64,000 nt of DNA, taken from positions 62,001 through 126,000 of the forward strand of contig NZ_ANAY01000001.1 in assembly GCF_000340965.1 (NCBI RefSeq), in the 5' to 3' direction. Position numbers and translations under genes: made by a program. A model generated the notes under the pieces. The model had not been told where the DNA came from. It worked only from the letters and a program-made list of their open reading frames with translations, and made no database searches. The DNA is from Nocardiopsis kunsanensis DSM 44524. GTDB taxonomy: Bacteria > Actinomycetota > Actinomycetes > Streptosporangiales > Streptosporangiaceae. This document shows, piece by piece, positions 7,501-20,617 of this stretch (within the stretch, counting starts at the first letter, position 1; each line of letters opens with the position of its first letter).

Positions 7501-8520
7501 TCAGATGACCGGGGGGCGCCCCGCCCGCGTCATCCGCCACACGGTGCTCCAGCCGATCGGTGTGCGCGGACCGGCGTCCTCACGCCAACCCTCCCGGAAG
7601 CCCTGGAACCAGGCCCGCAACGCGTCGCCGTCGCGCTCGCGCAACAGTGTCAGCCCGACCCAGGTGCCCAGGTACGGCAGCACCAGCGCCCACGGCAGGT
7701 TCCTGCGCGCCAGCCACACCCGGTTGCGGGCGTTGAGCCGGTAGAAGTCGGCGTGCCGCGTGGGTGCGACCGCCGGGTGGTACATGACCGCGTCGGCGTC
7801 GTACTCGATCGTGTAGCCGGCGTCCATGATGCGCCAGGCCAGGTCGGTCTCCTCATGGGCGTAGAAGAAGTCGCCCGGGAGCCCGCCCCCGGCCTCGAAG
7901 GCCGAACGCCGGATCGCGCACGCCCCGCCCAGGAACGTGGTCACCACGCTGGACTCGCGCGGGTCGCCCACACGCAGCCGGGGCACGTGGCGGCGCTGGT
8001 CGGGGCCACCGTCGGGGTCGGCGATGCGGAACGAGATCGCGCCCAGCGACGGGTCGGAGCCGAACCGCTCCCGCACATGGCGGGCCAGGTCGGTGGAGCG
8101 GTACCAGCCGTCGTCGTCCAGGAACAGCACGACGTCGCCCTCGGCGGCGCGCACACCCTCGTTGCGCCCGGCGGGGATACCGACGTTCTCGGGCAGCTGG
8201 ACGATCCGGACGCCCTCGGGCAGCTCCGGCAGTTCGGCGCCGTTGCTGACCACGACGACCTCGACGTCGGCGCCCTCCTGCTCGAACACGCTGGTGATCG
8301 CGCGGCGCAGCTCGGCCGGACGGGTCCCCATCGTGAGCAGGACACAGGACAACGTGGGTGCGGACACCTCGGAGCGGCTCCGTTCAGCTGCGGTGGGCCG
8401 GAGGTCCACCGCATCGGACGTACCGGAACCCGATACGGGAGGGGCGGAAGCGGTGGACCGTGTGCCCTCCGCCTGGGGCGTACCGGAACCAGATGCGGGC
8501 GGAATGACAGGAGTAGCCAT
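7501..8520 (-). CDS. Glycosyltransferase family 2 protein
   Basis: Residues ~56-290 form a GT-A fold: SCVLLTMGTRPAELRRAI at the start, the metal-binding DDD in VVLFLDDDGWYRS, and an ED-like motif in HEETDLAWRIMDAGY. This resembles rhamnosyl/galactofuranosyl-type GT2 enzymes. The first ~50 residues are low-complexity and contain two copies of a ~20-residue unit beginning PPxSGSGT, from a 60-bp imperfect DNA repeat. The true start could be further in, near the GT fold, because the repeat region has no recognisable function. Near the C-terminus there may be one weak hydrophobic helix (LVLPYLGTWVGLTLL). Confidence 0.87.
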   Translation of the reverse strand: MATPVIPPASGSGTPQAEGTRSTASAPPVSGSGTSDAVDLRPTAAERSRSEVSAPTLSCVLLTMGTRPAELRRAITSVFEQEGADVEVVVVSNGAELPELPEGVRIVQLPENVGIPAGRNEGVRAAEGDVVLFLDDDGWYRSTDLARHVRERFGSDPSLGAISFRIADPDGGPDQRRHVPRLRVGDPRESSVVTTFLGGACAIRRSAFEAGGGLPGDFFYAHEETDLAWRIMDAGYTIEYDADAVMYHPAVAPTRHADFYRLNARNRVWLARRNLPWALVLPYLGTWVGLTLLRERDGDALRAWFQGFREGWREDAGPRTPIGWSTVWRMTRAGRPPVI

Positions 8521-8708: not shown

Positions 8709-9491
8709 TTATTCGAGCCGGCGTGAGGCCACCACGCTCACGAAGTGGGCCGCGCTCATCAGCACACCCACGAACGCGCAGACCGCGACGAGGACCCTGG
8801 TTGCGGTGAGGTCGCCCAGGAAGGCGTCCACGACCGCGACCACGACCACGAGCAGGGAGAGCTCGACCGCCTGGATCACGCGGTGCACCTTCAGCGCCGA
8901 GACCAGGCGCCGGGCCAGACTCAGGCCGGACGACCGCGGACTCATCGCGGCGTCGGTGATCTCCTCGGGCAGCCCCGCCTTGGCGCGGGCCACCACCACG
9001 TTGTCGGTCTCGGCCTTGATCAGGGCCACACCGAGAGCGGCCGCCATCCCCAGGACGACCCAGCCGCCCGCCTCGAACTCACCCTGGGCACGGATGCCCA
9101 GGCCGATGAGCAGGGCGATCTCGGACACGTAGTGCCCGATGCGGTCCAGGTAGATCCCGGCGACGCTGGTGCGTCCGGTGTACCGGGCGACCTCGCCGTC
9201 CGAGCAGTCCAGGAGCAAGTAGATCTGGACCATCACGGCGGCCAGGACCGCGGACCACAGTCCGCCGAAGGCCACGACCGCACCGGCCAGGACCCCGAAG
9301 GCCATCATCAGGTAGGTGATGGGGTTCGGGGGGACGCCGAGCCGGACGAACACGGTGCTCACGTACGGGGAGAGGTCCCGCATGTAGAGCCGTCCGGCCC
9401 AGTGTTCCTCGTTGGTTCGCTCCTTGATCCCCACGGGCTGGCCGCCCGCGCGGACCTCAGCGACCGACGGTTTCGACATACTCAGCGACAC
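8709..9491 (-). CDS. CDP-alcohol phosphotransferase family membrane protein with altered catalytic motif
   Basis: The CDP-alcohol phosphotransferase signature is easy to see: D95, D98-G99, A102-R103, G112 and D116 with correct spacing. The last position, normally an Asp (the general base), is His120 in YLDRIGHYVSE. There are about five or six hydrophobic helices around residues 42-72, 78-95, 118-135, 143-158 and 205-255. The family transfers a phospho-alcohol from a CDP-alcohol to an acceptor alcohol at the membrane. It is the last gene of an operon with a cytidylyltransferase-like enzyme and a glycerol-1-phosphate dehydrogenase-like enzyme, which suggests that CDP-glycerol or a related CDP-polyol is the donor (inference). 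The gene overlaps the upstream one by 35 bases; ATG 9479 is an alternative start. Confidence 0.85.
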   Translation of the reverse strand: MSLSMSKPSVAEVRAGGQPVGIKERTNEEHWAGRLYMRDLSPYVSTVFVRLGVPPNPITYLMMAFGVLAGAVVAFGGLWSAVLAAVMVQIYLLLDCSDGEVARYTGRTSVAGIYLDRIGHYVSEIALLIGLGIRAQGEFEAGGWVVLGMAAALGVALIKAETDNVVVARAKAGLPEEITDAAMSPRSSGLSLARRLVSALKVHRVIQAVELSLLVVVVAVVDAFLGDLTATRVLVAVCAFVGVLMSAAHFVSVVASRRLE

Positions 9492-10524
9492 TCCGCCCGA
9501 TCTCGTCCTCGGAGAGGTTCAGGTGTTCCAGGATCGTGAACCGGCCGGGACGGGTGTCCGGCGCGAGGGCCACCGCCTTGACGAACTCCTCCTGGGACAG
9601 GCCCACGTCCGAGGGGACCACGGGCAGCTCGTGGCGGAGCAGGCAGTCGCGGATCTCGTGCATGCGCGGTTCGGACCAGCCCAGCCGGGTCACCCGCAGG
9701 AAGGACGCGTACAGCGTCCCCAGGCCGGCGAGCTCGCCGTGGTTGCTGGTGCCCGGGTAGAGCTGCGTGACCGCGTGCAGGATCTCGTGGCAGGCACCGC
9801 TGGCGGGCCGGCTCGAGCCGGCCACCGACATCGCCATGCCGGAGAGCACCAGACCTTCGGCGAGCACGGTCAGGAACGCGTCGGACTCCACCGAGTCGGG
9901 GCGGTGCAGGATCGCCTCGGACGCGACACGGGCGAAGGTCACCGCCATCCCGTCGACCGGTTCACCGTTGACGCGCCCGGCCAGTTCCCAGTCCTCGATC
10001 GCGGAGATGTTGCTGACCACGTCGCCGATACCGGAACGCACCAAGTGGGTGGGGGCCGCCTGGACGTAGTCGACGTCGATGACCAGGGCGATGGGCATGG
10101 TGACGCCGATCGACGGTTTGCCGCCCTCGTGCTCCAGGGAGCTCACCGGGGAGGCGATGCCGTCGTGGGCCAGGTTGGTGGCCACGGCCACCATCGGGAT
10201 GCCCGCCATGGTCGCGGCGAACTTGGTCACGTCGATGGTCTTGCCGCCGCCGATACCCGCCACGGCCTCGTAGGCGCCCGAGCGCAGCTTCTTGCCGAGG
10301 TCGGTGGCGGCGTCCACAGTGCCTTCACTGACCTGGAAGACCTCGCACTGGGGCAGGTCGACGTCGCGTTCGATACGTTCACCCTGGCCGGGGCCGACCA
10401 CGAGGGCGATACGGCCCTCGGTGGCGATGCGGCGGTCGGCCAGGACGTCGCCGAGCCGGGCGATGGCCCCCCGGCGCACGTCGATGGCCAGGGGGGACTG
10501 CAGCATTCGGGCTAGTAGCGGCAC
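9457..10524 (-). CDS. sn-Glycerol-1-phosphate dehydrogenase family protein (EgsA/AraM type)
   Basis: The 355-residue protein has the NAD-binding GIGGGKTIDVTKFAA, the NLAHDGIASP segment whose Asp is a metal ligand in the family, a second ligand region GACHEILHA and a third in GTSNHGELAGLG. These are hallmarks of glycerol-1-phosphate dehydrogenases rather than of general iron alcohol or glycerol dehydrogenases. The family reduces dihydroxyacetone phosphate to sn-glycerol-1-phosphate: in archaea for lipids, and in Bacillus (AraM) for heptaprenylglyceryl phosphate. Here it sits between a nucleotidyltransferase and a CDP-alcohol phosphotransferase, overlapping both by 13-35 bases, so its product may be activated with CTP. 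The exact substrate is inference. Confidence 0.85.
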   Translation of the reverse strand: MPLLARMLQSPLAIDVRRGAIARLGDVLADRRIATEGRIALVVGPGQGERIERDVDLPQCEVFQVSEGTVDAATDLGKKLRSGAYEAVAGIGGGKTIDVTKFAATMAGIPMVAVATNLAHDGIASPVSSLEHEGGKPSIGVTMPIALVIDVDYVQAAPTHLVRSGIGDVVSNISAIEDWELAGRVNGEPVDGMAVTFARVASEAILHRPDSVESDAFLTVLAEGLVLSGMAMSVAGSSRPASGACHEILHAVTQLYPGTSNHGELAGLGTLYASFLRVTRLGWSEPRMHEIRDCLLRHELPVVPSDVGLSQEEFVKAVALAPDTRPGRFTILEHLNLSEDEIGRSVAEYVETVGR

Positions 10525-11243
10525 GCGATCTCCCTCGCCTCGGCCAGGTCGTCGTGGTCGTCGACCTCGACCCAGTCGACGTCGCCGATGGGCGCGATGG
10601 CGAGTTTCTCGCCGCGGTCGACGAGTTCCTGGTACCCGTCCTCGTAGTACAGCTGCGGGTCGCGCTCCCAGGTCGCCTTGAGCGCGTCGGCCAGGCGGGC
10701 GTCCGAAGAGCCCTCGATGAGGGTGGCGCCGATGTACTCGCCGGCGGCGGTACCCGGGTCCATGAGTTTGGTGATGTTCTCCAGGTGCCCGGAACCGTCC
10801 AGGGTCACCTTCATCTCCTCGTCGCCGAGCTTCTTGACGTTGTCGACCGCCAGGAGGAGCTCGGGGCCGCGGGCGGCCAACAGCGTCTCCTCGATGCTCA
10901 CCGGGTGCACGGTGTCGCCGTTGACGAGGAGGACACCCTCGGAGAAGAACTCACGCGCGGTCCACAAGGAGTAGGCGTTGTTCCACTCCTCGGCCTTGTC
11001 GTTGTAGCTGAGGGTGATCTTGACGCCGTGGCGCTCCTCGAGGGCCTCCTTGCGTTCCTCGACGGCCTGCGCGGCGTATCCGACCACCACGACCACATCG
11101 GTCAGACCGGCGGCTGCCAGGTTGCGCAGCGAGATGTCCATGATGGTCGTCTCACCGTCGACGGGCACCAAGGCCTTGGGCAGGGTGTCGGTGTAAGGAC
11201 GCAGCCGGCGTCCCGCGCCCGCGGCGAGAACCATTCCGAGCAT
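10512..11243 (-). CDS. Sugar/polyol-phosphate nucleotidyltransferase, LicC/IPCT-like
   Basis: GMVLAAGAGRRLRPYTDTLP followed by KALVPVDG is the nucleotide-binding signature of the family. NNAYSLWTAREFF around residue 90 resembles the NNxYSL motif of phosphocholine cytidylyltransferase LicC and of archaeal inositol-1-phosphate cytidylyltransferase. VNGDTVHP and VDWVEVDDHDDL supply the metal-binding acidic residues. At 243 residues it has the expected single-domain size. ATG 11243 is chosen because a perfect AAGGAGG lies 11 bases upstream; the frame extends further to 11306 without another good site. It overlaps the dehydrogenase by 13 bases. CTP as co-substrate and a polyol phosphate as acceptor are inferred from the operon. 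Confidence 0.85.
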   Translation of the reverse strand: MLGMVLAAGAGRRLRPYTDTLPKALVPVDGETTIMDISLRNLAAAGLTDVVVVVGYAAQAVEERKEALEERHGVKITLSYNDKAEEWNNAYSLWTAREFFSEGVLLVNGDTVHPVSIEETLLAARGPELLLAVDNVKKLGDEEMKVTLDGSGHLENITKLMDPGTAAGEYIGATLIEGSSDARLADALKATWERDPQLYYEDGYQELVDRGEKLAIAPIGDVDWVEVDDHDDLAEAREIACRY

Positions 11244-11259
11244 GAGGGCGTGTTCCTCC

Positions 11260-11904
11260 TTAGGTTGAGGAGGCGTCCACGCCTCCTCGGTCGTTGTGGC
11301 CGTCACGAACGTCGGTCACCGGTGTCGCGCTCCAGGTGCGCACGGACTCGCGGACGAGCAGTGCCACCAGGTACGCGGCGAGCAAGCCGTAGGCGGCCGT
11401 GAGCGACTCCAGTGCTCCCCCAGCGGCGACGACGAGCATGCGCCCGTCCCAGCCGAGGGCAGCGGCACGTACCCATCCGGGTCGGACCATACCGACCGCG
11501 GGCCGGGCTGCGTCATCGCGATGGTGGAGGACGACCGCCACCAAGAGTACGAACACCAAGGGACCGGGTACACCGGACGCCAGTCCCAGAACCGCCAGGA
11601 ATCCGTACTCGCTGAGGCGTAGAACGGGTGGAACGAGCCAGTCGAACCGTCCGTCGTGGGGGTGGCCCGAAGTAAGGCCGGACAGTAGCAGGGATGCGAC
11701 CGGTGCGCACAGGGTAATGCCTGTCAACCGTCCCTGGTCTGCCAGGAGGAGGACACTGACCACGAGGGCCCCCGTGAGCACGGTGAGCAGAGGCGGGAAG
11801 GCACCCGGGACGAGCCTGCCCAGGAGGTTGCCGATGTGACTGTCATCACGAAGGAACCGAAGGTCCGGCCTGCGCGGGTCGGTCTCACGCACGGCCGCAC
11901 TCAC
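11260..11904 (-). CDS. Polytopic membrane protein, DUF5941-like, probable degenerate CDP-alcohol phosphotransferase relative
   Basis: The 214-residue protein has about six hydrophobic helices (near 30-50, 55-70, 85-105, 110-125, 150-175, 180-195). The pattern DWLVPPVLRLSEYGFL resembles the C-terminal membrane part of actinobacterial DUF5941 proteins. It aligns by eye with the second half of the CDP-alcohol phosphotransferase motif of the gene at 8709 (YLDRIGHYVSEI), but with Val in place of the catalytic Asp. GTG 11904 overlaps the upstream stop as GTGA, so translation is coupled. The gap to the next gene is 16 bases. No catalytic function can be assigned; a structural or substrate-presenting partner is a guess. 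Confidence 0.7.
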   Translation of the reverse strand: MSAAVRETDPRRPDLRFLRDDSHIGNLLGRLVPGAFPPLLTVLTGALVVSVLLLADQGRLTGITLCAPVASLLLSGLTSGHPHDGRFDWLVPPVLRLSEYGFLAVLGLASGVPGPLVFVLLVAVVLHHRDDAARPAVGMVRPGWVRAAALGWDGRMLVVAAGGALESLTAAYGLLAAYLVALLVRESVRTWSATPVTDVRDGHNDRGGVDASST

Positions 11905-12707
11905 CGCCGCTCCACCTGCTCCCAGGCACCGACGAGTTCGCTCGTGACGGCGAGGGCGCACCCGATGACAAGGGTGACGAAGGCGACCCGGGGGTCCCAC
12001 ACGACGGTGGTGACCCCGATGACGAGGAAACGCACCGGCTGGGTGAAGGACAGCCAGCGGCGGGCGAGGTCGGGCAGGGGCACCACCGTGGCGGCCGGCC
12101 CGCGCCCGGCGGCCTCCTCCTGCCGCGCGTCCCGGGCCACACGCGTGCGGCCGGCCCGTTCGCCGCCGCCCCCGAGCAGACGGCCGGTGAGTTCGGGGTC
12201 GCCTTCGCCGGGCCGGCACGGGACAGGGACCCCGGCCGCGCCGAGAAGCCCCTCAGAAAGCTGCTGCCCGGCTCCCGCGCCCCGAACCGTACCCCGCCCC
12301 CGCGGCAGGGCCGGCGGGGCCGTGCGGGCCACCAGGAGCGAGTCGCGCAGTGCCAGGGCGATGAGGGCGCCGGCCGCCCACGCCCAGGCCCCGTTGACCC
12401 CGGCGGCGACCGCGCCCAGGGCCAGCCCCGTGTAGACGACGTACTCACGCAGTTGGCCGAGCATGGTCACGAGCCACAGGGTCAGGGAGTCGCGGTCGTT
12501 GGCGCTCATGGCCCCGCCGACCGCGTCACAGCCCAGCACCAGCACGAGCAGGACCGCGCCGGCCAGTGCCCCCTCGCCCTCCTCCTGAGCGAACCAGACG
12601 GCCGCGCCGAGCGCGACCAGCACACTGATCCGCGCCATGCCGGCCCGGGTGACGTCCCGGCGCTCGAGGACGCGTGCGACCGCCCGTGCGGGTGAAGCGT
12701 GTGCCAT
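11901..12707 (-). CDS. Polytopic membrane protein, second degenerate CDP-alcohol phosphotransferase-like protein
   Basis: It is the first gene of the five-gene operon (268 residues). Hydrophobic segments lie near residues 27-62, 75-115, 225-262, with a long Gly/Arg/Pro-rich hydrophilic insert between about 130 and 210. LWLVTMLGQLREYVVY has the same WLVx5LxEY pattern as the next gene. The position of the catalytic Asp of true CDP-alcohol phosphotransferases is again occupied by Val, so catalysis is unlikely. ATG 12707 follows GGGAGG with eight bases between. The family is conserved in actinomycetes as far as I recall, but I know of no assigned function. Confidence 0.7.
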   Translation of the reverse strand: MAHASPARAVARVLERRDVTRAGMARISVLVALGAAVWFAQEEGEGALAGAVLLVLVLGCDAVGGAMSANDRDSLTLWLVTMLGQLREYVVYTGLALGAVAAGVNGAWAWAAGALIALALRDSLLVARTAPPALPRGRGTVRGAGAGQQLSEGLLGAAGVPVPCRPGEGDPELTGRLLGGGGERAGRTRVARDARQEEAAGRGPAATVVPLPDLARRWLSFTQPVRFLVIGVTTVVWDPRVAFVTLVIGCALAVTSELVGAWEQVERR

Positions 12708-12902: not shown

Positions 12903-13814
12903 CTACTGGCCGCCGCCGGAGGGGTCGTCCTTCTTCCGGCCCGGCTCCCCGCCGTCCTCGGGTTTCTTCCCGTCCTCGGTCTTCTGCTCGGCACGCTTCT
13001 TCTTGGCCTCGTCGCGCTTCTTGCGCTCCTCGACCTCGGCCTTGGTGTCCTTGTTGTAGGCCGCCAGCGCGGAATCGATGTCGGTGTCCAGGGCCAGGCT
13101 GCCGTTGCGGATGTAGAGACCGCGGTTGCAGAACCGGCGCAGGTCCTTCTCGCTGTGGGACACCAGGACCATCGTGCGCTCGTTGGCGAGCATGCGGTCG
13201 ATGGCCGCGTAGCACTTGAGCTTGAAGGCCTTGTCACCGACGGCCAGGACCTCGTCCACGAGCATGATCGGGTGCTCGAGCTGCGAGATGAGCGCGAAAC
13301 CCAGGCGCACCTTCATGCCGCTGGAGTAGTGGCGCACCGGGGTGTCGATGAACTTCGACTTGATCTCGGCGAAGTCGACGATGTCGTCGAAGCGCTCGTC
13401 GATCTGCTTCTCGCTCATCCCGTGCAGGGAACCGACGAGGTACACGTTCTCGCGGCCGGTCAGGTTGTCGTTGAAACCTGCCCGCAGCTCCAGCAGCGGA
13501 GCGACCTTGCCGTGCACGCTGACATTGCCCTCGTCGGGGATCAACACACCGGCGATCATCTTGAGCAGCGTGGACTTGCCGGTGCCGTTCTTACCGACGA
13601 TGCCCACGCAGTCGCCCTTGCCGATCTCGAAGGAGACGTCGCGCAACGGCCAGAACTCGTCACCCTCGGCATTGGGGTCGCGCTTGTTGCCGTGGATGAA
13701 CATCTCGCGCAGGCTGCGCTTGCGCCGACGGTTGACGGCGAACTTGACACCGAGGCCCTTGGCCTCGATGACAGGGCCAGCGCCATCCGTTTCGTAGGTG
13801 GAGGGCTGTGCCAT
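12903..13814 (-). CDS. ABC exporter ATP-binding subunit, TagH/Wzt type (teichoic acid or polysaccharide export)
   Basis: The 303-residue ATPase has Walker A GIVGKNGTGKSTLL, signature YSSGMKVRLGFA and Walker B HPIMLVDEVLAVGD. The long N-terminal loop before Walker A and the GRENVYLVGSLHGM segment are typical of the polysaccharide/teichoic-acid exporter ATPases (RfbE/TagH/Wzt). The C-terminal ~45 residues are a highly charged Lys/Glu tail, not a carbohydrate-binding Wzt domain. It powers export of an undecaprenyl-linked polymer with the permease encoded just upstream. ATG 13814 overlaps the permease stop (TGATG) and follows AAGGAG, which fixes the start. Confidence 0.92.
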   Translation of the reverse strand: MAQPSTYETDGAGPVIEAKGLGVKFAVNRRRKRSLREMFIHGNKRDPNAEGDEFWPLRDVSFEIGKGDCVGIVGKNGTGKSTLLKMIAGVLIPDEGNVSVHGKVAPLLELRAGFNDNLTGRENVYLVGSLHGMSEKQIDERFDDIVDFAEIKSKFIDTPVRHYSSGMKVRLGFALISQLEHPIMLVDEVLAVGDKAFKLKCYAAIDRMLANERTMVLVSHSEKDLRRFCNRGLYIRNGSLALDTDIDSALAAYNKDTKAEVEERKKRDEAKKKRAEQKTEDGKKPEDGGEPGRKKDDPSGGGQ

Positions 13815-14710
13815 CACAACTCCTTCAGGACGGACATCTCCAGACGGCGGAACGTCCAGTATCCGATGACGAGCATCAGGAACGAACCCACCACCGACGA
13901 CCACAACGCGATCGCGGTCGGGGTCAATTCCGCGAAGTCAGCGAACCACACGGCCCGGTGCATCTCGAAGATACCCAGCAACGGGTTGAGCTGATAGACG
14001 GTCTTGAGCCACCCGGGAATGCCCGCCTGCAGCACCATGACCGCCGGGTACAGGATCGCCGATCCGTAGAACAACAAGCGTGTGATGATGCGCACCATAC
14101 GTTCGACGTCCCGGAACATGACGTTGACCGAGGACAGGAACAGGGTCATCCCCAGGCCGAACGCGAACTGCAGCAGGACCGCGGCCGGCAACCAGACCAG
14201 CAGCCCCATCACACTGAAGGAACCTCCCAGAACCACCACGAAGACCAGCAGTACCGGCAGGGTGAGCAGGTACTCGATGAACTTGGTCCCCACGGTGGCC
14301 ATCGGGAAGATCTCCCGCGGCACCTTCATCGTCGTGATGAGTTTGCCGTGGGTGATCATCGCACGGGGCGCCTCGCTGAGCATCGACCCGAACGAGTTCC
14401 ACGGCAGGATCCCCGCGACCAGGAAGAGCAGGAACCCGCCCTGGGCCATGGCTTCCTCCGGCATCCCGCGGGTGGCCTGGAGGATCATTCCGAAGACGAA
14501 GAAGTAGACCATCGTCAGAGCCAACGGCTCCAACATGGTCCACGCGTACCCCAATACGGACTGCTGGTACTTGACCTTCAGGTCGCGCCGGACCAGGAGG
14601 CCGACGACCTTCCGGTGCTCCCAGACGGCCAGCGCCCTTGACGCCACCGCCACCTCCAAGGGTTGAGTTCTCTTCGCCCGGAACGCGATGCGCCGGACGG
14701 CCGCGTGCAT
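13814..14710 (-). CDS. ABC exporter permease, TagG/Wzm type
   Basis: The 298-residue ABC-2 family permease has an amphipathic N-terminus with LVRRDLKVKYQQSVLGYAWT, a hallmark of polysaccharide/teichoic acid exporter permeases. Six membrane helices follow (about residues 60-85, 95-120, 140-165, 175-195, 205-225, 265-285). ATG 14710 follows AAGG with eight bases between; the open frame runs on to 14917 but that part is low-complexity Arg/Pro and lacks homology. It forms the transmembrane channel for the partner ATPase. The likely cargo is the ManNAcA- or polyol-phosphate-containing glycopolymer suggested by neighbouring genes (inference). Confidence 0.92.
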   Translation of the reverse strand: MHAAVRRIAFRAKRTQPLEVAVASRALAVWEHRKVVGLLVRRDLKVKYQQSVLGYAWTMLEPLALTMVYFFVFGMILQATRGMPEEAMAQGGFLLFLVAGILPWNSFGSMLSEAPRAMITHGKLITTMKVPREIFPMATVGTKFIEYLLTLPVLLVFVVVLGGSFSVMGLLVWLPAAVLLQFAFGLGMTLFLSSVNVMFRDVERMVRIITRLLFYGSAILYPAVMVLQAGIPGWLKTVYQLNPLLGIFEMHRAVWFADFAELTPTAIALWSSVVGSFLMLVIGYWTFRRLEMSVLKEL

Positions 14711-15066
14711 GTGTCTTGCCTTGCGCGCACCAGGCCTCTGCACGCGGTCCGACCCACGGCAACGGCTTCCGGCACGGGGGAGAGTGTGTCCGGGTGACCG
14801 GGGGAGTGTCACGGACCGCGCCCGGCTCCACGACCGAATCAGAGGAGGTCTGGACCGAGCACGCCATATCAGGCGTCCATCAGGGTACCGCCGTGGAGGA
14901 CGGGCCTCGTCCAACACCTGGCTCCCAACGTATCGCCGCGCCGGCGCCGGCGCTCCTTCCGAAGCACCTGACCGCAGGCCCCTGCCACCGTCACTGTGGT
15001 CTGCCCGGCGCGTTGGGCTAGTCTCGGCCGCGACCGTGAACTTCGTCGACGAGGGGGTGGGCCGCC
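14711..15066. other. Intergenic divergent region, 356 bases
   Basis: This lies between the exporter permease (leftward) and the cytidylyltransferase (rightward). No coding frame with family resemblance is seen. It should hold both promoters; the only box I can point to is TAGTCT at 15019-15024, reading rightward. No stable hairpin or repeat stands out. Confidence 0.5.
15019..15024 (+). promoter_or_regulatory. Possible -10 box (TAGTCT) for the cytidylyltransferase operon
   Basis: TAGTCT fits the actinobacterial TAnnnT -10 pattern and lies 42 bases before the ATG. The upstream hexamer TGTGGT at 14995-15000 (18-base spacer) is a weak -35 match. Confidence 0.35.
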
Positions 15067-19102: not shown

Positions 19103-20617
19103 ATGAGCGACGACAACGCCGGACACCAGGGATCGGCGGGCGAGTTCCGGCGCGAGCGGTCACAACCCCTGCCCCCGCACGAGCGGCGTTCCCCCCGTAG
19201 CGGGCGTCTTGTCGTCCCCTCGGCCGCCGTGCGCCGCCGCCGCACCACGCTCGTGCTCATGAGCGCTCTGTCGGTACTGGTGCTGCTGGCCTCCGGTATC
19301 TCCTGGGGAGCCACCGCATGGGTCTCGGGCAACATCAACCGCTCCGACGTGTTCGGCGGCCTCGCCGAGGGCGAGCGGCCCGAGAACGAGACGGGTGCGC
19401 TGACGTTCATGGTCATCGGTTCCGACGGCCGCGAGGGGATGAGCAGCGAGGACCAGGACGCCCTCAGCGTGGGTTCCACCCCCGGCGAGCGTTCCGACGC
19501 GATCATGCTCGTGCACCTCAACCACGAACGCGACCGCGTCACCGTCGTGGGTGTGCCCCGCGACCTGTGGGTGGACATCCCCGGCGAGGGCGAGGACAAG
19601 ATCAACGCCGCATACGCCCACGGCGGACCGCAGAAGTCCGTGCAGACCATGGAGGAGTTGACGGGGGTGCGCATCGACCACTACGTCGAGGTGGACTTCA
19701 CCGGGTTCGTGGACGTGGTCGACGCCCTCGGCGGGGTGGAGGTGTGCCTGGAGGAGTCGATCGAGGACCCCAAGGCCCAGCTCGACCTCGCGGCCGGGAC
19801 CCATGAGGTGGACGGCGCCGAAGCGTTGGCCTTCGCACGCACACGCGCCACCCCCCGCGGCGACCTGGACCGGATCGAGCGCCAGCAGCAGGTGGTCGCG
19901 GCGATGATGGACCGGGCGTTGCGCACCGACACCCTCTCCGACCCGACCAAGCTCACCTCGTTCCTGGAGAGTTCCCTGTCGTCCCTGACCGTGGACCAGA
20001 GCCTGGACACCGCCGCCCTCAACGAGCTGGGCCACCAGATGCGCGGCCTGGACCTGTCCGCCGTGGACTTCGCACAGGTGCCCATCGCCGACATGGAGCA
20101 CTGGACCGACCGCGGTGACGTCGCGGTGCTGTGGGACGAGCCGGCCGCCCGCGACCTGTTCGCCGACATCCGGGCCGACCGCCCCATCGACGGCGGGGAG
20201 GAAGCCGAGGCAGAAGGGGGCGACGGCCCGGGCCCGTCGGACGTGCCGGTACGGGTCTTCAACGGGACCGCGAGCCCCGGGGCCGGCTCCGAGCTGGACG
20301 ACCAGCTGTCCGAGGCCGGGTTCGAGCTGACCGACCGGGCCGAGAACTGGACCAGCCGGGACCTGGCCGGCACCCAGGTGCGCCACGGCCCCGGGATGGC
20401 CGAGGAGGCCGCCTACGTGTCCGGGATGATCCCCGATTCTGAAGCCGTCGAGGACGACACCCTGGACGGCGAAGTCCAGGTCGTGATCGGATTCGACTAC
20501 ACCACTTTCGACGCCCCGGGGACCGAGGCCGAGGAGGGGTCGGAGGGGTCCCCTTCCGGGTCGCCGGACGCCGGCTCCCCCGCCACCTCGACCGCCGAGG
20601 ACAACATCTGCTCGTAG
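19103..20617 (+). CDS. LytR-CpsA-Psr (LCP) family glycopolymer ligase with LytR_C domain
   Basis: A cytoplasmic Arg-rich tail (1-48) is followed by one membrane helix (about 49-72) and the extracellular LCP domain. Within it, FMVIGSDGREGM, RSDAIMLVHLN with VGVPRDLWVDIPG, and the Arg/Asp region LAFARTRATPRGDLDR hold the polyprenyl-pyrophosphate-binding residues. The C-terminal ~100 residues (from VPVRVFNGTASPGAG) are a LytR_C domain, followed by a Ser/Pro/Glu tail. LCP enzymes attach undecaprenyl-linked teichoic acids or polysaccharides to peptidoglycan, or arabinogalactan in mycobacteria, and this fits the surrounding polymer genes. The start ATG has GGGACGGGA upstream. A perfect TTGACA at 19023-19028 may be the -35 box, but the matching -10 is poor. 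Confidence 0.93.
   Translation: MSDDNAGHQGSAGEFRRERSQPLPPHERRSPRSGRLVVPSAAVRRRRTTLVLMSALSVLVLLASGISWGATAWVSGNINRSDVFGGLAEGERPENETGALTFMVIGSDGREGMSSEDQDALSVGSTPGERSDAIMLVHLNHERDRVTVVGVPRDLWVDIPGEGEDKINAAYAHGGPQKSVQTMEELTGVRIDHYVEVDFTGFVDVVDALGGVEVCLEESIEDPKAQLDLAAGTHEVDGAEALAFARTRATPRGDLDRIERQQQVVAAMMDRALRTDTLSDPTKLTSFLESSLSSLTVDQSLDTAALNELGHQMRGLDLSAVDFAQVPIADMEHWTDRGDVAVLWDEPAARDLFADIRADRPIDGGEEAEAEGGDGPGPSDVPVRVFNGTASPGAGSELDDQLSEAGFELTDRAENWTSRDLAGTQVRHGPGMAEEAAYVSGMIPDSEAVEDDTLDGEVQVVIGFDYTTFDAPGTEAEEGSEGSPSGSPDAGSPATSTAEDNICS

Follow-up and report, generated by a model that had tools for sequence, protein, structure and literature searches.

A widely conserved bacterial gene set as the probable source of archaeal-type (mirror-image) activated glycerol phosphate for the cell surface

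Analysis of a 64,000-nucleotide stretch of the Nocardiopsis kunsanensis DSM 44524 genome (the window) points to a gene set, conserved across many genomes, whose probable product is activated glycerol phosphate of the archaeal hand, the mirror image of the usual one, for use at the cell surface. With somewhat more confidence than doubt, we read the locus as a module that supplies glycerol phosphate of the archaeal hand and transfers it to a cell-surface polymer. In the proposed pathway the dehydrogenase G1PDH_D, judged by its family and zinc site, would reduce DHAP to sn-glycerol-1-phosphate (G1P); the nucleotidyltransferase NT_C, as its near-invariable pairing with the dehydrogenase and its likeness to LicC suggest, would use CTP to form CDP-glycerol with the phosphate at sn-1; and the glycerol-1-phosphoryl group may then pass to a membrane-bound acceptor through the CDP-alcohol phosphotransferase CDPAP_E, the TagF-like enzyme of the genome, or both.

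The preliminary description had placed five genes on the minus strand (12707-8709), in the order two membrane proteins, nucleotidyltransferase, G1P-dehydrogenase-type enzyme and CDP-alcohol phosphotransferase, beside a teichoic-type exporter, and this layout held. The genes MEM_A, DUF_B, NT_C, G1PDH_D and CDPAP_E follow one another with junctions of -4, +16, -13 and -23 bases. Codon-position G+C singles out four of the five; DUF_B is not among them, yet it matches PF19365 (DUF5941). The Wzm/Wzt (TagG/TagH-like) genes end 195 bases upstream and encode an ABC exporter ATPase of the TagH/Wzt type (12903..13904, minus strand; NF010065, E 1e-54, below its cut-off) and a permease of the TagG/Wzm type (13814..14917, minus strand; PF01061, with KpsM/Wzm models below cut-off). 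A GT2 glycosyltransferase gene (7501..8520, minus strand; PF00535) begins 188 bases downstream of the set and travels with CDPAP_E, relatives adjoining CDPAP_E in other loci too. The same surface region holds a LytR-CpsA-Psr (LCP) ligase gene (19103..20617, plus strand; PF03816, E 5e-51) with a possible role in wall attachment. In the proposed pathway the GT2 enzyme would add sugar, the TagGH-type exporter would carry the product out, and the LCP ligase may attach it.

The dehydrogenase and nucleotidyltransferase assignments were borne out by model searches and solved relatives. G1PDH_D (9457..10524, minus strand; 355 aa, GTG start) is of the EgsA/AraM type (PF13685), and its best model is NF002022 (E 2e-73, 247 bits), followed by glycerol dehydrogenase at 51 bits. 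The score lies below the curated cut-off of 413, which only 3 of 14 control genomes passed, although 13 had a match. The protein matches the solved G1P dehydrogenase 4rgq (E 5e-41), and D168, H246 and H262 align with 4rgq D181, H259 and H280; these are presumably the zinc ligands D148, H226 and H247 of the M. jannaschii structure, given a constant numbering offset of 33. Both histidines are invariant in 21 aligned sequences, the aspartate is kept in at least 90%, and the DGxxSP stretch is invariant. These features support the assignment of G1PDH_D as an sn-glycerol-1-phosphate dehydrogenase with a putative DHAP to sn-G1P activity.

NT_C (10512..11243, minus strand; 243 aa) matches PF00483 and PF12804, and not PF01467, which places it outside the TagD type (TIGR01518/CTP_transf_like). 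Its best solved relative is LicC (1jyk, E 5e-15), with which it has an NDK..NN.YSL stretch in common whose NN is invariant in 17 sequences; it also matches the nucleotidyltransferase/aminotransferase 6pd1, which we take to be PntC. A sugar-nucleotide role for NT_C was considered and is disfavoured by these sequence comparisons, LicC being the best solved relative and no NCBIfam model reaching its cut-off among the matches listed (25 of 27). From its likeness to LicC and its near-invariable G1PDH partner, NT_C is proposed to be a CTP:sn-glycerol-1-phosphate cytidylyltransferase. CTP and G1P as substrates are family-level predictions, and no sequence criterion fixes either.

The two genes taken for membrane proteins are instead CDP-alcohol-phosphotransferase relatives that lack the active-site motif. 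MEM_A (11901..12707, minus strand; 268 aa) alone matched no Pfam or NCBIfam family in a scan begun from an upstream GTG; it aligns with the intact CDP-alcohol phosphotransferase domain of sequence A5 and has lost the catalytic Asp motif. On this alignment it is a decayed domain that corresponds to the intact one within the Streptomyces-type fusion protein of 611 aa. DUF_B (11260..11904, minus strand; 214 aa, GTG start) has a predicted CDP-alcohol phosphotransferase fold from a fold search, and the Asp motif is absent in its alignment. A sequence-profile comparison of DUF5941 with CDPAP_E gave no link (probability 0.3%), so that it is the fold search that relates the two. MEM_A and DUF_B look like relics; in the proposed reading they would be inactive transferase relatives that probably derive from an ancestral protein of two domains, as its remnants or as its partners.

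CDPAP_E (8709..9479, minus strand; 256 aa) does have the fold, its nearest relatives being AF2299 and IPCT-DIPPS, and the preliminary assignment stands as regards the fold. The predicted activity is uncertain: in the class I motif D-x2-D-G-x2-A-R-x8..-G-x3-D-x3-D the fourth Asp, the presumed catalytic base, is replaced by His, and transfer by CDPAP_E is therefore not a given. The substitution, to H (62) or A (12), occurs in all 74 loci matching above 100 bits, repeats included, and this is the unbiased count; with repeats removed the split was 56/9 among 65 distinct sequences, the search pattern there demanding H or A. The D1, D2, D3, G and AR positions are kept without exception in 17 aligned sequences. 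All 65 distinct sequences carry an acidic residue (D or E) four places past the lost Asp. We discarded the idea that it compensates, because DUF5941 fusions with an intact motif carry D or E there too, and so the residue proves nothing on this point.

Co-occurrence of the genes in other genomes, which the preliminary description had named as a check, was examined in 58 loci: the NT_C-G1PDH pair was present in 55, with contig ends accounting for two of the remaining three, and CDPAP_E in 39. The same arrangement appears in further genera, including Streptomonospora and Allonocardiopsis, and in other families. In S. coelicolor the set presumably carries the locus tags SCO6752-SCO6757, under which a network-inference paper was found; our searches returned no paper on DUF5941 and none joining G1PDH, Streptomyces and cytidylyltransferase. 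Streptomyces synteny of araM, nucleotidyltransferase, CDP-alcohol transferase, GT2 and tagG/H was published in 2026 in a paper that lists the region as teichoic acid biosynthesis-associated and, in its available portions, has nothing on pathway, stereochemistry, TagD absence or the DUF5941 fold (PMC13118837). The available text of a study of S. coelicolor, wall teichoic acid and CDP-glycerol likewise has nothing on the proposed route (PMC7831098).

G1PDH was found in 72 of 296 genomes of the class; PF04464 occurs in 69 of these, against 47 of the other 224, and TagD (E<=1e-20) in none, against 23, with a co-occurrence p-value of 6.6e-32 that ignores kinship among genomes. The N. kunsanensis genome has one PF04464 gene and no TagD over the cut-off: its 35-bit TIGR01518 match is a PfkB+CTP_transf protein, and a further partial match (22.7 bits) lies in a CTP_transf_like protein. 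Among 43 wide loci, four (L074, L125, L126, L130) have a PF04464 gene in the same stretch as NT_C-G1PDH, and 33 of 116 PF04464 genomes have neither CDP-glycerol source. PF04464 proteins need not use CDP-glycerol. If the NT_C-G1PDH pair makes CDP-glycerol, it would replace TagD, the usual source, in these actinobacteria. Strict exclusion of TagD does not hold, as at E<=1e-3 some match, none above the cut-off, appears in 47 of the 72 genomes. A full-length TagD relative (58-68 bits; cut-off 165) is present in ten G1PDH genomes of one family (f3), so the replacement is not absolute; a few further G1PDH genomes have matches of 30-50 bits spanning most of the model. Five of six fetched loci with such relatives (L173, L175-L178) also carry, within that stretch, a full-motif CDP-alcohol phosphotransferase, and those relatives may therefore serve another product. 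Of two TagF-like capsule polymerases described in the accessible part of one study, one polymerised Gro1P with a cytidylyltransferase in vitro and the other did not use Gro1P (PMC8262930).

Consideration of other fates for the product bears on this reading. B. subtilis AraM has G1PDH activity and, as far as the text available to us reports, its G1P goes into an archaeal-type ether lipid (PMC5059525); a similar AraM-PcrB destination here is scarcely credible, and we reject it, since PcrB was found neither in the N. kunsanensis genome nor in any of the 72 G1PDH genomes, the same search being positive in 7 of 14 controls, and the partner gene of the G1PDH is a nucleotidyltransferase instead. The match of NT_C to 6pd1 and the sub-threshold NF002022 score would suit another alcohol phosphate (glycerol-2-phosphate, a phosphonate alcohol or a tetritol phosphate) and hence another CDP-alcohol, which is quite improbable given that the G1PDH model is the best by far and that the DGxxSP stretch and zinc site are retained.

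The transferase end admits two further readings. The product could be a lipid head group or small phosphodiester, as with IPCT-DIPPS, the exporter neighbours serving another glycan; the nearest relatives of CDPAP_E agree with this, as does the lack of an exporter in the fetched stretch of five wide loci (L119-L123) from the window's own family. We regard it as unlikely, because other families also have relatives of the exporter close to the gene set (for example L060, L063, L064, L125 and L126) and PF04464 so regularly accompanies G1PDH. There is similarly a small chance that the Nocardiopsis transferase end has lost all activity, leaving the pair with the sole task of providing CDP-glycerol for a TagF encoded at another site in the genome. 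In favour of this, the motif is incomplete or absent in each of the three CDP-alcohol-transferase-like proteins of the locus; against it, the remaining CDPAP_E motif positions are unbroken, and in L015 and L003 CDPAP_E is 87-97% identical, compared with 53-78% for MEM_A.

If the proposed supply of archaeal-hand glycerol phosphate is correct, many actinobacterial wall polymers would contain glycerol of the hand opposite to that given in textbooks, and this unit would be normal in surface polymers of a major bacterial group with no archaeal lipid involved. A bolder version, which we consider doubtful, is that, in much of the Actinomycetia, the glycerol-phosphate wall and lipoteichoic acids are enantiomers of the textbook wall polymer; that CDP-sn-1-glycerol, made by G1PDH and the LicC-like enzyme rather than TagD, feeds a cytoplasmic route; and that CDPAP_E makes polyprenyl-diphospho-glycerol, a new kind of primer, giving a lipoteichoic acid route. 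In this version CDPAP_E, lacking the catalytic base, would use an acceptor that is ionised beforehand, polyprenyl phosphate for example. If correct, the main proposal would also put forward a definite candidate for the synthesis of lipoteichoic acid in actinobacteria, which have no clear LtaS orthologues and for which the portion available of one paper calls this synthesis an open question (PMC3196553). The stereospecific hydrolase GlpQ, described in the accessible text of another as distinguishing Gro3P from Gro1P polymers (PMC7086022), gives the proposal a simple prediction. The analysis also gives DUF5941 a predicted fold and brings to light a group of CDP-alcohol phosphotransferases in which the loss of the fourth Asp is conserved.

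Among known systems, the TagD/TagF wall teichoic acid pathway of B. subtilis likewise joins glycerol phosphate and CTP into CDP-glycerol for a membrane-linked polymer that leaves via TagGH; here, in contrast, the cytidylyltransferase is LicC-like, a CDP-alcohol phosphotransferase lies within the operon and, since a G1P dehydrogenase would supply the glycerol phosphate, the product would have the opposite hand. The AraM-PcrB system of Bacillales likewise uses, in a bacterium, a G1P dehydrogenase from the family of G1PDH_D, which is partnered here by a nucleotidyltransferase and not PcrB. LicC is a phosphocholine cytidylyltransferase, whereas NT_C is paired with G1PDH and no choline context was seen in the scanned genes. 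Archaeal IPCT-DIPPS, with AF2299 nearest to CDPAP_E in fold, fuses a nucleotidyltransferase to a CDP-alcohol phosphotransferase; here the genes are separate, a G1P dehydrogenase is attached and the fourth motif Asp is missing. The araM-tagG/H syntenic region of Streptomyces, as given in the available portions of PMC13118837, is the same gene set.

The five minus-strand genes (12707-8709) all run in one direction, as was first described, with junctions of -4, +16, -13 and -23 bases. In the window an exporter pair of the Wzm/Wzt (TagG/TagH) type lies upstream of them, with an LCP ligase gene farther upstream, and a GT2 enzyme is encoded downstream. The dehydrogenase, G1PDH_D, matches the NCBIfam model for sn-glycerol-1-phosphate (G1P) dehydrogenase with an E-value of 2e-73 and 247 bits, against a model cut-off of 413; the next model, glycerol dehydrogenase, scores 51 bits. 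Its closest solved relative is 4rgq (E 5e-41), a G1P dehydrogenase from M. jannaschii, and residues D168, H246 and H262 (numbering checked) align with the three zinc ligands of 4rgq. The closest named record found is from N. xinjiangensis (97% at the dehydrogenase). For the nucleotidyltransferase, NT_C, the closest solved structure is LicC (E 5e-15).

Conservation of this arrangement was followed across 58 loci, comprising the 29 best-scoring loci of a phylum search (36 of 296 genomes positive) and the 29 best-scoring of a class search (72 of 296 positive). In 55 of the 58, G1PDH has a relative of NT_C next to it on the same strand, the aligned parts being no more than 280 bases apart; of the three exceptions, two fall at contig ends and L042 is the one genuine miss. 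The CDP-alcohol phosphotransferase CDPAP_E comes next in 39 loci, and at L030 another CDP-alcohol phosphotransferase takes its place. The pair thus persists where other genes of the set do not, which argues that NT_C takes the dehydrogenase's product as its substrate.

At L182:36-4859 (genome G108) the stretches fetched hold no NT_C beside G1PDH, and an S-layer/lamin-tail protein gene lies upstream. In another actinobacterial family, f10 (L067-L072, L075, L076 and L078), the pair has a type I phosphodiesterase (PF01663) and a sugar transferase of PF02397 nearby; both loci scanned also carry DUF4012, and no CDPAP_E match exceeds 100 bits. Here the pair's product may be used in a third way. At L064:13537-17049, probably Streptomyces, two squalene/phytoene synthase genes and a gene of the amine-oxidoreductase family come after the set, resembling a hopanoid cluster; crtB is noted in the available part of PMC13118837.

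In the class sample of 296 related genomes, apparently the same for all three counts, G1PDH is present in 72, TagD, the usual CDP-glycerol source, in 23 (TIGR01518 at E<=1e-20; 3 exceed the model's cut-off) and TagF/TagB-like PF04464 in 116. PF04464, which alone is no proof of CDP-glycerol use, occurs in 69 of the 72 G1PDH genomes, in 14 of the 23 TagD genomes and in 33 genomes with neither; TagD at this threshold occurs in none of the 72, nor does PcrB. The 69 genomes span nine families and the 23 span seven; f8 is the only family with both, and there they belong to different genera. When the threshold is relaxed, 47 of the 72 have some TIGR01518 match, none above the 165-bit cut-off and the best at 68: ten genomes of f3, probably Streptomyces, carry a full-length relative (58-68 bits), and a few others reach 30-50 bits over most of the model. 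The matches from the window's own genome are a PfkB plus CTP_transf protein (35 bits) and a CTP_transf_like protein (22.7 bits). Of six fetched loci with such TagD relatives, five (L173 and L175-L178) also have, in the same stretch, a CDP-alcohol phosphotransferase whose motif is intact. In these five probable Streptomyces the TagD-like CTP_transf scores 64.6-68 bits and the phosphotransferase motif reads DSADGQLAR...LDHVVD; together the two would form a second, different CDP-alcohol system.

Among 43 wide loci, 4 contain a PF04464 gene together with the pair in one stretch, three times on the other strand. The window's own genome has a single TagF-like PF04464 gene, whose protein makes up the C-terminal portion of a 1219-aa frame (L179:7570-11229) between an ABC-3 transporter gene and a tRNA synthetase gene, the N-terminal part matching no Pfam family.

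Family membership and pairing suggest that DHAP would be reduced to G1P and G1P converted to CDP-1-glycerol, followed by glycerol-1-phosphoryl transfer at the membrane, glycosylation and export. Confidence is lowest for the transfer, since CDPAP_E lacks the fourth motif Asp: a His could serve as base, the acceptor could already be ionised (e.g. polyprenyl phosphate), or activity could be lost, with TagF the sole user. Of two TagF-like capsule polymerases given Gro1P in vitro, Cps7D made polymer and Cps3D none, according to the accessible text of PMC8262930; such a donor is thus usable in principle.

In the portion available of a 929-genome Streptomyces study, a syntenic region containing araM, tagG, tagH, a CDP-alcohol transferase, a GT2 and a nucleotidyltransferase is recorded as associated with teichoic acid biosynthesis (PMC13118837). 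Within the open-licence literature, available in part, no paper was found to state that actinobacteria reach CDP-glycerol by way of G1P, and the AraM lipid pathway is taken as restricted to Bacillales in the text accessible (PMC8262930). Excerpts of PMC3196553 describe lipoteichoic acid from Streptomyces hygroscopicus (polyglycerolphosphate) and Thermobifida fusca, and actinobacterial genomes without clear LtaS orthologues. In B. subtilis 168, Gro3P forms the wall acid and Gro1P the lipoteichoic acid, the two being told apart by GlpQ (PMC7086022, in part), which makes the handedness of actinobacterial polymers amenable to a direct test.
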